Positions 43,552 through 54,992 of a DNA stretch of 54,992 bases are shown in pieces. The translations under genes were made by a program, and so were the position numbers. Source of the stretch: Alphaproteobacteria bacterium (GTDB taxonomy: Bacteria; Pseudomonadota; Alphaproteobacteria; GCA-2731375); assembly GCA_030747035.1 (NCBI GenBank), contig JASLLM010000004.1, forward strand, positions 1 through 54,992. Reading direction: 5' to 3'. Within the stretch, counting starts at the first letter, position 1. The number at the start of each line of letters is the position of its first letter. The notes beneath the pieces were generated by a model that saw only the letters and a program-made list of their open reading frames with translations, ran no database searches and had not been told where the DNA came from.

Positions 43552-44799
43552 ATGCTTTTGGCCAATTTTCTGTATCGTCTAGTCAAAACGGGCCGGCTAA
43601 CGGTCATTGATGCAACAGGCCGGCGTCACGTGTTCCAGGGGAAACGCGATGGTCCGGCGGTCACGATCCGCCTGCATGCCCGGGACCTGCACTGGAAATT
43701 GTTCACCAACCCAATGCTCTACACCGGCGAGGCCTACATGAACGGCATGCTGACGGTGGAGGATGCGGAGCTATATGATTTTCTCGATCTGATGGGCATG
43801 AACGTGGGCTGGCGGCAGCCGGACCATTGGCTGCAAAATATGATTACCACGCCACTGCGCGAAGCCATGCGCCGGTTTCGGCAATATAACCCCGCCTCTC
43901 GGGCCCGGGCCAACGTCGCCCATCATTATGACCTTACGGGCCAGTTGTATGATCTGTTCCTGGATTCGGACCGGCAATATTCCTGTGCCTATTTTCAATC
44001 GCCCGATGACGATCTGGAAACGGCGCAATTGCGGAAAAAGCGTCATTTGGCGGCCAAGCTGGCGCTGGAGCCCGGCCATCGGGTGCTTGATATTGGCTCC
44101 GGCTGGGGCGGCATGGGGCTGTACCTGGCGCGCAACGAACAGGTTCTGGTCCACGGCGTAACGCTGTCCGAGGAGCAGCACAAGCTTTCCAACGAACGTG
44201 CCGCCAAGGCCGGACTGTCGGGTTTCGTCTCGTTCGCGCTGCAGGACTACCGGGCCGTCGAGGGGCCGTTCGACCGTATCGTCTCGGTCGGCATGTTCGA
44301 GCATGTGGGGCTGAACCACTATGGCGAATACTTTGACAAGGTGCGAAACCTGCTGACCGATGATGGTGTTGCCGTGCTGCACACCATCGGCCGGGCCGAC
44401 GGTCCTGGCGCGACCAATCCCTGGCTCAACAAATACATTTTCCCCGGCGGCTACAGCCCCTCGCTCTCCGAGGTTTCCGCCGCGGTCGAAAAGGCCGATC
44501 TGTATATCACGGATGTGGAAATATTCCGCCTGCAGTATGCCGAGACCCTGCGCCATTGGCGGCAGCGCTTCTACAGCAACCGGGACAAGGTCGCGGCATT
44601 GTTCGATGAACGATTTGTCCGCATGTGGGATTTCTATCTATGCGGCTCCGAGGTCGCCTTCCGCCATGGCGGTCATGTGGTCTTCCAATTGCAGTTGGCC
44701 AAGAAGGCCGATGCGGTGCCCGAGACCCGGGATTACATATTCGATGGCGAAAGACGGCTGTCGCGGCGGGCCCAGAAGTCCGATTCGCGCGCGGCGTGA
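43552..44799 (+). CDS. Cyclopropane-fatty-acyl-phospholipid synthase family enzyme
   Basis: A 415-residue SAM-dependent enzyme methylating double bonds of membrane lipids. The N-terminal part has H-A-R-D-L-H-W-K-L and M-N-G-M-L-T-V-E-D. The methyltransferase core has N-V-A-H-H-Y-D-L, V-L-D-I-G-S-G-W-G-G and M-F-E-H-V-G-L-N-H-Y, all CFA synthase hallmarks. AGGTTGATC precedes the ATG at 43552; a start 45 bases earlier is possible but lacks a site. The gene stands alone between two operons; the 211 bp after it hold nothing I can identify. Confidence 0.88.
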   Translation: MLLANFLYRLVKTGRLTVIDATGRRHVFQGKRDGPAVTIRLHARDLHWKLFTNPMLYTGEAYMNGMLTVEDAELYDFLDLMGMNVGWRQPDHWLQNMITTPLREAMRRFRQYNPASRARANVAHHYDLTGQLYDLFLDSDRQYSCAYFQSPDDDLETAQLRKKRHLAAKLALEPGHRVLDIGSGWGGMGLYLARNEQVLVHGVTLSEEQHKLSNERAAKAGLSGFVSFALQDYRAVEGPFDRIVSVGMFEHVGLNHYGEYFDKVRNLLTDDGVAVLHTIGRADGPGATNPWLNKYIFPGGYSPSLSEVSAAVEKADLYITDVEIFRLQYAETLRHWRQRFYSNRDKVAALFDERFVRMWDFYLCGSEVAFRHGGHVVFQLQLAKKADAVPETRDYIFDGERRLSRRAQKSDSRAA

Positions 44800-50593: not shown

Positions 50594-51304
50594 ATGTTTA
50601 GTGAATTTCCCATAAACGTGACGGACCTGGTGATCGCGGCGATCCTGCTGATCTCCGGCTTGCTGGCGTTGAGCCGCGGTTTCGTCAAGGAAGTGCTGTC
50701 AATCGCCGGCTGGGTCATTGCCGCCGTCGCGGCGTTGGAGCTGTTTCCATATGTCCAGCCCATCGCCCGCCGCTATATCAAACAAGACCTGATCGCCGAT
50801 TCGGTCTCCAGCGTGGTTATCTTCGTGGTCGTGCTGACCCTGGCCTCGCTGCTGTCATCGGCCATATCCAGGCGGGTGCAACGCAGCGAAATCGGCGTCC
50901 TGGACCGCTCCCTCGGTTTCCTGTTCGGTCTGCTGCGCGGCGTCGTGGTGATCGCCCTGGCTTATCTGGTCCTGGTGCAATTCCTGCCGGCCAGGGATCA
51001 GCCGGACTGGCTGCGTCAGGCCCGGGCCATGCCGGCCATCGAGTATAGCGCGGAATTGCTGGCCAACCTGGCGCCGGAAGACGTGCGCGAAGGACTGGCG
51101 GGTATCGGCGAAATGGGGCGTGAGGGCGGCAAGGAGTTGGATTCCACACTGGACCGGGCGATTGACGCCGGCCGCGCGGCGGAGCAGCTGAAGGGCGCCA
51201 TCGATGGCACAAACAGGGCCGCTGACAAGGGCCGAGAAAGCGGCTATACATCCGGCTCGCGTGACGATATGAACCGCCTTATCCAGAACCGGACGGACAA
51301 GTGA
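50594..51304 (+). CDS. cvpA: CvpA family membrane protein
   Basis: A 236-residue protein with four membrane helices in the first 145 residues: V-T-D-L-V-I-A-A-I-L-L-I-S-G at the start, then S-R-G-F-V-K-E-V-L-S-I-A-G-W, the family signature. The C-terminal 80 residues are soluble. The family is linked to envelope integrity and colicin V production. It overlaps a possible purF GTG start, and the cvpA-purF pair is conserved. Confidence 0.9.
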   Translation: MFSEFPINVTDLVIAAILLISGLLALSRGFVKEVLSIAGWVIAAVAALELFPYVQPIARRYIKQDLIADSVSSVVIFVVVLTLASLLSSAISRRVQRSEIGVLDRSLGFLFGLLRGVVVIALAYLVLVQFLPARDQPDWLRQARAMPAIEYSAELLANLAPEDVREGLAGIGEMGREGGKELDSTLDRAIDAGRAAEQLKGAIDGTNRAADKGRESGYTSGSRDDMNRLIQNRTDK

Positions 51305-51354
51305 CCCAGCGTTCCGATGACGACCACAGCGGCCAGGATGGCGGAGTTCCCAGT

Positions 51355-52839
51355 ATGGCTGGAACCACGAACCCTTTCGCACATCGCCATGGCCAATCCG
51401 GGGCCGACAGTGACAAGTTTCATGAAGAATGCGGTGTCTTCGGCATTATCGGCAGCACGGATGCCGCCGCTCATACGGTGCTTGGTTTGCACGCCCTGCA
51501 GCACCGGGGACAGGAGGCGGCGGGCATCGTTACCCACGATGGCGGGCAGTTCTTTTCCCACCGCAGCCTTGGCCACGTCGGCGACAATTTCAACTCGGAA
51601 TCCGTAATCAGCCGGCTGCCCGGTGATGCGGCGTTGGGTCATAACCGTTATGCCACGACGGGCGACACTATCCTGCGTAATGTCCAGCCCCTGTTCGCGG
51701 AATTGCAATCGGGCGGTTTCGCCATTGGCCACAACGGTAATCTGACCAATTCGGGCACCTTGCGCAGCCAGTTGGTGCAGCGGGGCTGCATTTTTCAGTC
51801 AACCATGGATACCGAGGTGATCACTCATTTGATCGCCACTTCGAGCTACCACGATCTGCTGGACCGCATGATCGATGCCCTGAAAGCCGTGGTTGGGGCC
51901 TATAGCCTGGTCGCCATGACCGAGGATAAACTGATCGGCGTGCGCGACCCCATGGGGGTGCGGCCGTTGATCCTGGGCCATCTGGAAGGCGCGCCGATCC
52001 TGACATCGGAAACCTGTGCCCTGGACATCATCGGGGCCGAATTCGTGCGCGAAGTGGCGCCGGGCGAATTGATCGTTTGCAGCCGCGACGGCATCGAAAG
52101 CCTGATGCCCTTCCCACCGGCGCAATCCCGGCCCTGCATCTTCGAATATGTCTATTTCTCACGGCCCGACAGCATCACGAACGGCCGCTCCATCTACACT
52201 GTGCGCAAAGCCATCGGTGCCCATCTGGCGCGGGAAAGCGCGGTGGGGGCGGATGTGGTCATACCGGTACCGGATTCCGGCACGCCGGCCGCCATCGGCT
52301 ATGCCGAGGAAGCAGGCGTGCCGTTCGAACTGGGCATTATCCGCAACCACTATGTGGGCCGAACCTTTATCGAACCCTCGCAGAGCATCCGCAACTTCGG
52401 CGTCAAGTTGAAACACAACGCCAACCGGGCGGAGATCGAGGGCCGGCGCGTGGTGCTGGTGGATGATTCCATCGTGCGCGGCACTACCTCGAGCAAAATC
52501 GTGCAGATGGTACGAGACGCCGGCGCCCAGGAGGTGCATATGCGCATCGCTTCACCGCCCACCGCTAACCCCTGCTATTACGGCATCGATACCCCCAGCC
52601 GCGAGGAGTTGATGGCCGCCAATCTGGACGTGGAAGCCATGGGCCGACAAATCGGCGTCGACAGCCTGGCCTTTATTTCCATCAACGGCCTGTACCGGGC
52701 CGTGGGCGGGATCGACCGCGATGAAGAACAGCCGCAGTATTGCGATGCCTGTTTCACCGACCAATATCCGGTCTCGCTGGTCGATCTGGCCCAGGGCCGG
52801 GCGCCGGCGCAATTGTCGCTGCTGGCGGAGCATAGTTAA
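51355..52839 (+). CDS. purF: Amidophosphoribosyltransferase
   Basis: A 494-residue enzyme (512 from a GTG at 51301) making phosphoribosylamine from PRPP and glutamine, the first purine step. The glutaminase nucleophile is the Cys in E-E-C-G-V-F-G-I, preceded by a short propeptide. A-L-Q-H-R-G-Q-E-A-A-G and H-N-R-Y-A-T-T-G-D follow. The PRPP site is V-V-L-V-D-D-S-I-V-R-G-T-T-S. GCGGAG precedes 51355, while 51301 lacks a good site but overlaps the cvpA stop; both are possible. Confidence 0.95.
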   Translation: MAGTTNPFAHRHGQSGADSDKFHEECGVFGIIGSTDAAAHTVLGLHALQHRGQEAAGIVTHDGGQFFSHRSLGHVGDNFNSESVISRLPGDAALGHNRYATTGDTILRNVQPLFAELQSGGFAIGHNGNLTNSGTLRSQLVQRGCIFQSTMDTEVITHLIATSSYHDLLDRMIDALKAVVGAYSLVAMTEDKLIGVRDPMGVRPLILGHLEGAPILTSETCALDIIGAEFVREVAPGELIVCSRDGIESLMPFPPAQSRPCIFEYVYFSRPDSITNGRSIYTVRKAIGAHLARESAVGADVVIPVPDSGTPAAIGYAEEAGVPFELGIIRNHYVGRTFIEPSQSIRNFGVKLKHNANRAEIEGRRVVLVDDSIVRGTTSSKIVQMVRDAGAQEVHMRIASPPTANPCYYGIDTPSREELMAANLDVEAMGRQIGVDSLAFISINGLYRAVGGIDRDEEQPQYCDACFTDQYPVSLVDLAQGRAPAQLSLLAEHS

Positions 52840-52853
52840 AGGCGCTTGCCGTC

Positions 52854-53603
52854 ATGAGCCCACGCTTGAAGGACCGAATAGCCTTGATCACCGGTGCCTC
52901 CCGCGGGGTCGGCGCCGCTGTCGCCAAGGCCTACGCGGCCGAGGGCGCCCATGTCATCCTGGTCGCCCGCACCACCGGTGCGCTGGAGGAGGTGGATGAC
53001 GAGATTAGGTCCCTGGGTGGCGGCGGCGCGACGCTGGTGCCGATGGATCTGGCCGATTTTGGTGCCATCGACGATTTGGGCCGGCAGATTTTCCAACGCT
53101 GGGGCAAGCTGGATATTCTGCTCGGCAATGCCGCCATTCTGGGCGATCTCTCCCCCGTCGGCCATATTCGGCCCGAGGTCTGGCAGCGTGCCTATGATCT
53201 GAACGTCACCGCCAACTACCGCCTGATCCGCTCCATGGATGCCCTGTTGCGCCAGTCGGATGCGGGACGGGCGATCTTCGTTACCTCCGGTGCGTCGCGG
53301 TCGCTTTCGCCATACTGGGGCCTCTATGCCTCGACCAAGGCGGCCCTGGACGCGATCGCACAGATTTATGCCAAGGAAACCCAGAACACCGCTCTGCGGG
53401 TCAATCTGGTCAATCCCGGTCCGACGCGGACGGAAATGCGCGCGGCGGCTTTCCCCGGCGAAGATCCCGACAGCCTGCCGCCGCCCGAACATCTGGCCGA
53501 AACCCTGATCCGCCTGGCCGAACCCGGCTTCACCGAAACCGGCCTGTGGGTCGCGGCGGACGTGCAACCAGCCGCCTCACCGCCGGACGATTCAATTCAC
53601 TGA
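52854..53603 (+). CDS. Short-chain dehydrogenase/reductase
   Basis: A 249-residue SDR. The cofactor motif is T-G-A-S-R-G-V-G-A at about 13-21. Unlike most SDRs, the usual N-N-A-G is G-N-A-A (L-G-N-A-A-I-L-G). The catalytic Ser lies in V-T-S-G-A-S-R and Tyr-Lys in Y-A-S-T-K-A-A. Gene order purF-SDR is common in alphaproteobacteria. The substrate is unknown. Its stop region overlaps the 3' end of the convergent FrnE-like selenoprotein gene by 7 bp. Confidence 0.88.
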   Translation: MSPRLKDRIALITGASRGVGAAVAKAYAAEGAHVILVARTTGALEEVDDEIRSLGGGGATLVPMDLADFGAIDDLGRQIFQRWGKLDILLGNAAILGDLSPVGHIRPEVWQRAYDLNVTANYRLIRSMDALLRQSDAGRAIFVTSGASRSLSPYWGLYASTKAALDAIAQIYAKETQNTALRVNLVNPGPTRTEMRAAAFPGEDPDSLPPPEHLAETLIRLAEPGFTETGLWVAADVQPAASPPDDSIH

Positions 53604-54220
53604 GGTTTCTCTTCGACCCCCGCTTCCTGCAGCAGCCGCTCCAGCATTTCGTAGGGTTGGGCCCCGACCACGCCTTGCTGGCCGGCGACAAAAGTGGGCA
53701 CCCCGGTAACGCCGTGTTGCCGAGATTTCTCCCAATCCTCGTCCACCGCGTCGGAGAAGCTGCGGCTTTCCAGCATCTGGCGCGCCGCTTCCATATCCAG
53801 ACCGACGTCGTCGGCGATCTTCAGCAACGCCTCCACATCGCCCAGATTCACCCCATCGACGAAATAAGCCGTGTACAGGGCGTCATGGATGGCCTCGCCG
53901 CCTTCCTGGGTGTCGGCCCATTTGCCTAGTTCCTGGGCCAGGCGGCTGTTGTAGGTATGGGTGCGATGGCTGTAGGGCAGGCCCTCTTCGTCCATCAGGC
54001 CTTTCATGCGGGTATACATGGCGTCCAGGTCCACGCCCCGGCCGGCGAACAGATCTTCCAGGCTGCGCCCTTCCATGGGTGTTTCGGGATGCAGGGGAAA
54101 GTGCACCCACTTGGCCTCGATGTTGAAATTCCGTTTCAGTTTTTCAATACGCACGGTACTGAGATAACACCACGGTCAAACGTAATCGGTAAATATTTCC
54201 AGGACCATCGGTTCAGACAT
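53597..54220 (-). CDS. DsbA/FrnE-family oxidoreductase with predicted selenocysteine (UGA at 54176-54178)
   Basis: A 207-residue thioredoxin-fold enzyme of the DsbA/2-hydroxychromene-2-carboxylate isomerase-like group. From the ATG at 54220, with GGAGAG upstream, the frame reads M-S-E-P-M-V-L-E-I-F-T-D-Y-V, then TGA, then P-W-C-Y-L. This matches the family start D-x-V-C-P-W-C-Y with the first catalytic Cys replaced by the UGA (codon 15); Cys18 remains. The body has F-P-L-H-P-E-T-P and the cis-Pro loop G-V-T-G-V-P-T-F-V near residues 167-175. A start at the GTG 54154, which ordinary calling would pick, leaves a protein without its active site and without a ribosome-binding site. A GU-loop hairpin follows the UGA. 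Selenocysteine is inferred from motif, start and hairpin together. Confidence 0.88.
54144..54162 (-). promoter_or_regulatory. Predicted bacterial SECIS hairpin of the FrnE-like gene
   Basis: Counting from the base after the UGA, nucleotides 14-20 (TCAGTAC) pair with 26-32 (GTATTGA), seven pairs with one G-U, around the loop CGUGC at 21-25. The G and U fall at 22 and 23, the same positions as in the OsmC-like gene. Size, place and loop fit a bacterial SECIS element. Confidence 0.72.
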
Positions 54221-54309
54221 CGCGGGTCTCTCCATTGCCTCGTGGGATCAGGCTTCCCGGGGAGTATAGCCTTCAGCGCCACGGGATGATACCGCCCGAG
54301 ATTTTGCGC

Positions 54310-54992
54310 TTATTCCGCCTCGTGAAAGATGATGCCCAGGGTGAAGCGTTGGCCGCTGTGCAGGCGGCTGACACCATGGCGCATGGGCGCGCGGAAATAG
54401 CCGCGCTTGCCCTGGACCGGGCGCTCCCTAACCGGGAAGATGACCATTTCGCCCTGCTCCGGCGTGACCGCCTGGCCTATGGATTGTGCCCGGGGCTGTT
54501 GCTCCACCAGCAGGAACTCGCCGCCGGTGAAGTCGATGCCGGGCCGGCTCAACAGGAACACCGCCTGCAATGGAAAATGCACCGCGCCGTAAAGGTCCTG
54601 ATGCAGGCGGTTGTAGCCGCCCGCCCCGTAACGCAGCAGCAGGGGCGTGGGTTTGGTTTGTCCCACGCCGCGGCAGATCCGGTGATAGGCATCCAGGGTA
54701 GCGGGATAGCGCTCATCGCCGGGCAGCTTGGCGGCCATGTCGTTGGCGATGGGGCATAGGTGGTGGTACATCTCCCGCCGCAATTCGGTGACGACATCGG
54801 GCAGCGGATTGTCGAAATAGCGGTACTGGCCCTCGCCAAAGCGATAGCGCGCCATCTCGATGGTATTGCGGAACCTCTCGTCGCGGCCGTAAAGATCGAT
54901 CAAACCGGCGCATTCGCCGGCGCTTAACAACGGCCCGCTACGGGCATAACCGTGGCGCGCGATCTGACCGCCCAATTGCCCCCAGTCCAGGG
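54310..54992 (-). CDS. 2OG-Fe(II) oxygenase (partial, cut by the window edge)
   Basis: The C-terminal 226 or so residues of an iron- and 2-oxoglutarate-dependent dioxygenase, continuing beyond the window. In-frame codons run to the edge (L-D-W-G-Q-L-G-G-Q-I-A-R-H-G-Y-A), so the true start lies outside; the TTG at 54975 is not needed. Fe ligands are His and Asp in R-L-H-Q-D-L-Y-G and the His in M-R-H-G-V-S-R-L; the 2OG-binding Arg follows in S-G-Q-R-F-T-L-G. G-G-E-F-L-L-V-E-Q-Q-P-R is the conserved strand. The substrate is unknown. Confidence 0.85.
   Translation of the reverse strand, partial: LDWGQLGGQIARHGYARSGPLLSAGECAGLIDLYGRDERFRNTIEMARYRFGEGQYRYFDNPLPDVVTELRREMYHHLCPIANDMAAKLPGDERYPATLDAYHRICRGVGQTKPTPLLLRYGAGGYNRLHQDLYGAVHFPLQAVFLLSRPGIDFTGGEFLLVEQQPRAQSIGQAVTPEQGEMVIFPVRERPVQGKRGYFRAPMRHGVSRLHSGQRFTLGIIFHEAE

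Follow-up and report, generated by a model that had tools for sequence, protein, structure and literature searches.

Near the end of the window, a stretch of 54,992 nucleotides from an Alphaproteobacteria bacterium (contig JASLLM010000004.1), a minus-strand reading frame resembling FrnE, a member of the DsbA family, is interrupted by a UGA at the first residue of its active site. This locus raises the question of whether the gene is the shorter open reading frame that begins downstream of the UGA, or a longer one in which the UGA is read as selenocysteine (Sec). The longer frame runs from the ATG at 54220 through MSEPMVLEIFTDYV-UGA-PWCYLSTVRIEKL... to a stop UGA at 53599-53597, and apart from the UGA at residue 15 it has no further internal stop. 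Under standard rules, the frame opens at GTG 54154 and yields an ORF of 185 aa. The features discussed below are listed in Table 1.

Table 1. Positions of the predicted selenoprotein gene, its signals and its neighbors in the window
Feature	Position	Strand	Remark
Gene for FrnE/DsbA-type U-P-W-C thiol(selenol)-disulfide oxidoreductase, predicted selenoprotein	53597..54220	-	207 aa + stop UGA
In-frame UGA, predicted Sec15, first residue of U-P-W-C	54176..54178	-	TGA in 31/81 sequences, Cys codon in 50/81
Cys18, second residue of the U-P-W-C pair	54167..54169	-	Invariant, 34/34 aligned rows
Ribosome-binding site GGAGAG	54228..54233	-	7 nt 5' of ATG; read from sequence
ATG start codon	54218..54220	-	14 codons upstream of UGA
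GTG chosen as start under standard ORF rules	54152..54154	-	Within bSECIS loop; missing from 19/31 UGA genes
Predicted bSECIS apical hairpin UCAGUAC-CGUGC-GUAUUGA	54144..54162	-	16-34 nt downstream of U of UGA
Val174-Pro175, probable cis-Pro loop facing active site	53696..53701	-	Invariance
Upstream neighbor, PF09859 2OG-Fe(II) oxygenase	54310..54990	-	Runs off window end; context only
Convergent neighbor, short-chain dehydrogenase (SDR)	52854..53603	+	3' ends overlap by 7 bases; context only

Protein family and the residue at the UGA

With Cys placed at the UGA, the translated protein matched the Pfam DSBA model (1e-36) and FrnE in the PDB (5.9e-27), and the first Cys of the FrnE C-P-W-C motif fell opposite the UGA. 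AlphaFold predicted the structure with a pLDDT of 95.6 and a pTM of 0.91. When this predicted fold was compared with the PDB using Foldseek, the best matches were five entries for Deinococcus FrnE (TM 0.88-0.89, 34% identity), followed by SCO1869, a putative DsbA oxidoreductase (PDB 3gl5; TM 0.87, 32% identity), for which nothing here points to Sec. Based on both sequence and predicted fold, the product has a thioredoxin domain of the DsbA type, with solved FrnE as its nearest match. An earlier note on this DNA had described it as a FrnE/DsbA-type protein with a UGA in place of the first Cys of C-P-W-C; both descriptions hold in the database matches and among the relatives described below.

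The window protein resembles Deinococcus radiodurans FrnE (DR_0659; PDB 5cnw, 5coh, 5xwh) in fold and in the position of C-P-W-C; unlike that protein, it has a predicted Sec for the first Cys and lacks the C-terminal CxxxxC. 2-Hydroxychromene-2-carboxylate (HCCA) isomerase and kappa-class GST share the DsbA-like thioredoxin fold and ranked lower, with TM values by query length of 0.72-0.77 for the predicted fold and identities of 16-20% in the Foldseek rows. By sequence, the PDB match to HCCA isomerase had an E-value of 2.1e-6, compared with the much stronger match to FrnE. To our knowledge, an invariant U/C-P-W-C pair is not a trait of either HCCA isomerase or kappa GST. The CP(W/F)C active site described for Deinococcus FrnE (PMC8945050) appears in the window protein as U-P-W-C and in its Cys relatives as C-P-W-C. 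Among 34 aligned members, the invariant residues include D12, U/C15, P16, W17, C18, Y19, FPLH at 41-44, T47-P48, N91-S92-R93, W163 and V174-P175, the last of which is presumably the cis-Pro loop opposite the active site. The second active-site Cys is kept in all 80 relatives, and in the 207-aa window protein it is the sole Cys. No Cys beyond the active site occurs in 23/31 UGA forms and 32/50 Cys relatives. The C-terminal CxxxxC is found in many, not all, FrnE proteins (PMC8945050), and it is an optional rather than a defining feature of FrnE.

A Cys-containing FrnE paralogue (L095) with the active-site sequence VCPWCYIG is encoded in the same genome (contig C188, 23713-24306) and has 30% identity to the Sec form. 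Because this paralogue is nearer to Deinococcus FrnE than the Sec protein is (5.8e-32 vs 5.9e-27), the Sec protein looks like a member of a sister subfamily, and it therefore stands beside canonical FrnE in this genome rather than replacing it. In NCBIfam, no model scored over its cut-off for the window protein, so automatic annotation may miss genes of this kind.

We scanned a genome collection once with six search patterns, identified 145 related stretches and retained the best 80. At the codon corresponding to the UGA, these best 80 of 145 divide into 30 with TGA and 50 with TGC or TGT, a proportion that does not represent a population frequency because one pattern (DYVCPWCY) is able to find Cys forms only and because just the best 80 were kept. 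With the window included, the 81 sequences comprise 31 TGA, 23 TGC and 27 TGT. Homologues with Cys aligned to the UGA, for which the earlier note had advised a search, are thus represented by 50 of the best 80 relatives. The UGA forms come mainly from Alphaproteobacteria, with others in records labelled Gammaproteobacteria, SAR324, Gemmatimonadetes, Thermoanaerobaculia and Thermodesulfovibrionia, and nearly all of them are from MAGs.

The draft state of the genome (4.3 Mb in 351 contigs, 84.7% complete) would suit an explanation in which the UGA is a sequencing error at 54176-54178, the point at which the earlier note expected resequencing to be decisive, or in which the gene is a pseudogene whose Cys codon mutated to TGA. 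A sequencing error is untenable, because 30 further loci, across several labelled groups, carry UGA at this very codon, and the error would have to be common to 31 assemblies; the frame also has no other stop, and we find this explanation, in either version, scarcely credible.

A quick tree of the 81 proteins, built after removal of the active-site stretch, needed 4 changes between Sec and Cys, compared with a mean of ~25 after shuffling, and its starred branches force 2 of them; some joins in this tree are unsure, as the long branches L068 and L088 meet. By eye, positions 22-24, past the active site, read T-(G/V) and then R in 29/31 Sec forms, and GD(N/S/A)R occupies the corresponding place in 45/50 Cys forms.

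Start codon and reading frame

In 23 of 30 UGA genes, with the window gene counted and one gene cut by a contig end (L016) left out, an ATG lies exactly 14 codons 5' of the UGA, and in the remaining 7 an ATG lies at 10-18 codons. At the position of GTG 54154, 12 of the 31 UGA genes have GTG and the other 19 have GGG; because of these GGG codons, GTG 54154 is not a conserved start. It is the GUG of the predicted bSECIS loop itself that forms the false start by which the selenoprotein is hidden. The earlier note had assigned the start to the upstream ATG with its GGAGAG and had called the conventional GTG start a mis-call. The frame and the ATG kept in relatives agree with the first of these assignments, and the loop position together with the 19 UGA genes without GTG agrees with the second.

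These observations bear directly on the possibility that translation begins at GTG 54154 and yields an ordinary, shorter protein, with the upstream homology left as a decayed or unused remnant. The 185-aa ORF obtained under standard rules fits that possibility, whereas the resulting protein would lose the active site and, in the predicted fold, the first strand (residues 5-11), and would depend on a start that is GGG in most UGA genes. The recurrent ATG at 14 codons from the UGA also speaks against it, as do the 14 codons between the two, in which each of 8 relatives differs by just 1-4 residues. We consider a short protein of this kind very improbable.

Predicted recoding hairpin and selenocysteine machinery

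A bacterial SECIS (bSECIS) is described as a stem-loop just downstream of the UGA whose small apical loop includes a G (PMC1088965). The hairpin predicted at this locus has an apical loop of 5 nt that contains a G. In a gapless alignment of the hairpin region, 6 or 7 of the 7 stem pairs are kept in 31/31 UGA sequences and in 0/50 Cys sequences, none of which has above 5 of 7. The loop and its closing pair read CCGGGCG in 19 of the UGA forms, CCGUGCG in 10 and CCGUGAG in 2, and among the 50 Cys forms any of these three loops is found in L052 only. This Cys (TGT) form (964-1572) retains CCGGGCG together with NTGRIEKL, resembling a fossil bSECIS, and its genome (G044) is without SelB over the cut-off.

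Across the 28 distinct UGA rows, 95.9% of cells were paired, compared with 26-45% in slid controls; two-sided changes occurred in 3/7 stem pairs, and two stem pairs were each broken in 4/28 rows. The covariation value was 0.151 vs 0.073 for shuffled alignments, with 0/500 shuffles as high and slid controls at 0.005-0.068, and by its number of "further pair types" the alignment did not stand out from shuffles (287/500 as high). Because kinship of the sequences inflates covariation figures, the contrast in the hairpin between UGA and Cys forms is the stronger evidence. Based on RNAfold minimum-energy folds of 57 nt, the hairpin forms in 20/31 UGA sequences, and by eye a competing fold wins in 11.

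We searched the gene's own genome for further selenoproteins with a covariance model (R1), where 150 of 2147 candidates were scored; the gene itself matched at 1.9e-21 and the next match was at 0.03. Among those 150, the SelD element was absent and no other site was convincing. Six of 12 weak R1 matches were examined for TGAs with >15 open codons before and >40 after, and nothing credible was found in these six. In the window, 8 TGA sites, this gene's included, precede at least 120 open codons with CCGTGC or CCGGGC downstream. The window TGA sites at 44354 and 25744 were considered as selenoprotein candidates and rejected, as both lie out of frame inside longer ORFs.

Absence of the Sec machinery from the genome was a second ground on which the earlier note would have given up its reading. 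Instead, the genome has a tRNA-Sec with anticodon TCA (66 bits), SelB (432.8 bits), SelA adjoining SelB (583 bits), and SelD (387.6 bits; L092, contig C33, 28887-29816). The SelD gene has its own in-frame TGA at the Sec site GGG-U-GCK, and 60 nt from that TGA fold into a hairpin whose loop, CGUGCU closed by C-G, has the letters of the FrnE-type gene's loop. A second tRNA-Sec match over the cut-off in the same genome (49.6 bits) is a tRNA-Ser according to ARAGORN. FdhA, considered as another candidate selenoprotein of this genome, gave a 685-bit match that starts from base 4 of a contig, and the matched part has no internal stop.

We surveyed SelB in 49 genomes, comprising those of 29 of the 30 UGA loci (L020 left out) and 20 hand-picked from the 50 Cys loci. 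SelB scored over the cut-off in 27/29 UGA genomes vs 3/20 Cys genomes (Fisher p 2.5e-8). In UGA genome G016, SelB is below the cut-off, and a 159.6-bit SelB fragment that lies directly after SelA is probably cut by the contig end. In UGA genome G024, SelA and SelB were not found and the best tRNA-Sec match was 46.4 bits against a cut-off of 47, a range of scores also reached by tRNA-Ser, as in the window's own genome; a near neighbor of its locus in the tree (L064) is from a genome with SelB. Two different Cys copies (L036 and L045) occur in one MAG, Rhodospirillales bin.246, and this genome (G035) also has SelB over the cut-off.

Read-through of UGA is possible in general, and the UGA could in principle be read as Trp or another residue by a near-cognate tRNA or under a changed code. 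Such a reading is highly unlikely here: all 50 relatives without the UGA have Cys at that codon, the hairpin is kept in UGA forms only, UGA forms accompany SelB, and UGA also terminates this gene. The frame, the UGA/Cys pairing, the hairpin, the Sec machinery and the predicted fold come directly from sequence, and with them in hand we consider it very probable that the gene is a UGA-encoded selenoprotein with a U-P-W-C site.

Known selenoproteins, proposed mechanism and genomic context

In the Sargasso Sea selenoproteome of 2005, nine DsbA-like selenoproteins are assigned to COG2761, with the motif UXXC and predicted bSECIS elements (PMC1088965); COG2761 is also the COG of frnE DR0659 (PMC1978522). 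An ocean survey (GOS) contains 63 "DsbA 1" UxxC sequences (PMC2398784), in a 2016 survey 41 organisms account for 45 DsbA-like selenoproteins (PMC5029168), DsbA-like UxxC proteins appear in a 2022 review (PMC9312934), and a 2026 review names a "DsbA-like protein form 1" (PMC13188914). The window gene shares with these DsbA-like selenoproteins (COG2761/PF01323) the same domain, a U-x-x-C motif with Sec first, a SECIS right after the UGA, and Cys homologues. Compared by description only, the published proteins AACY01178397 and NIP15863.1 are likely of the same subfamily. The word FrnE is absent from the main text of PMC1088965, PMC2398784, PMC5029168, PMC9312934 and PMC13188914, and the relevant passages of PMC1088965, PMC2398784 and PMC13188914 contain neither a U-P-W-C motif nor details of covariation or genome context. 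In a literature search outside which most subscription papers lie, the Sargasso Sea paper was the only one found to link selenocysteine with COG2761.

Because Sec-containing DsbA-like members of COG2761 have been on record since 2005 (PMC1088965), the novelty of the window gene is limited, and the list of known selenoprotein families is unchanged by it. It offers a clear case, full-length and anchored in a genome, of a predicted Sec FrnE-type protein, laid out alongside its Cys counterparts and its predicted recoding element, and an example of how a bSECIS loop can itself provide a false GTG start that conceals a selenoprotein. Having a Sec and a Cys paralogue in the same genome also allows a natural comparison of what the enzyme gains from selenium.

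We infer the insertion of Sec itself, the catalytic order, the reductant, the location and the physiological role as follows. Ribosomes would start at ATG 54220, and SelB with Sec-tRNA(Sec) would bind the predicted hairpin (54162-54144) just 3' of the UGA, so that Sec would be placed at residue 15. By analogy with thioredoxin-fold chemistry, the Sec selenolate would be the attacking residue of U-P-W-C and would react with a substrate disulfide to give a mixed selenosulfide; Cys18 would resolve this intermediate by forming an internal selenenylsulfide, and either thioredoxin or glutathione, as the thiol system of the cell, may then reduce the latter. As a FrnE-branch member of the DsbA family, the protein is probably cytosolic, the location being suggested because no signal peptide is visible in the sequence. 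Its net role would be fast disulfide reduction or isomerization under oxidative or metal stress, and we regard a disulfide reductase/isomerase as the reasonably likely function.

The selenoprotein could instead have a different main role, such as peroxidase chemistry at the selenol, detoxification of metals or metalloids, or glutathione-dependent catalysis of the HCCA isomerase or kappa GST type, which would contest that function only and not the presence of Sec. The fold shared with HCCA isomerase and kappa GST is in keeping with such a role, and the classical one may already be filled by the Cys FrnE paralogue; against this, FrnE is the closest fold (TM 0.89 for the predicted structure) and neither residue of the U/C-P-W-C pair varies. 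We consider a different main role rather unlikely, and a disulfide reductase/isomerase is the function assumed here.

A more tentative suggestion, to which we would give slightly less than even chances, is that the U-P-W-C proteins, recognizable by their FPLH and NSR motifs, are a subfamily of their own alongside canonical Cys FrnE. Sec may be the ancestral state of this subfamily, and its replacement by Cys may have accompanied the loss of SelB, a direction of change that is proposed on an unrooted tree. The RNA hairpin would then dictate protein residues, and L052 would be a fossil of the Sec state. If a separate, Sec-ancestral subfamily is real, it becomes testable why the lineage keeps selenium in one of its two FrnE enzymes.

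In the window, an Rfam scan gave 0 matches at gathering thresholds and ARAGORN identified no tRNA. PADLOC gave no match, and a promoter/terminator scan gave nothing over shuffles. Codon changes were counted against relatives as silent/residue changes. Compared with L011, there were 4/2 in the 14 upstream codons, 5/1 in the 25 codons after the UGA, and 52/20 in the next 164. In L011, L012 and L014, silent changes outnumbered residue changes on either side of the UGA; the upstream codons gave 2/3 in L013 and 3/4 in L015, and the last 164 codons gave 47/48 in L018 and 51/52 in L022. These raw counts, which are not dN/dS values, are mixed among relatives and were set aside as proof of selection.

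No functional link of the neighboring genes to the predicted selenoprotein gene is evident, and at 1e-20 none of PurF, the SDR and the PF09859 oxygenase was found in the other loci of the 80. Within the region 51301-54990 of the window, PurF and the SDR lie beside the gene, as they also do in the near relatives L011-L015, and the PF09859 oxygenase is shared with L011, L013 and L015.
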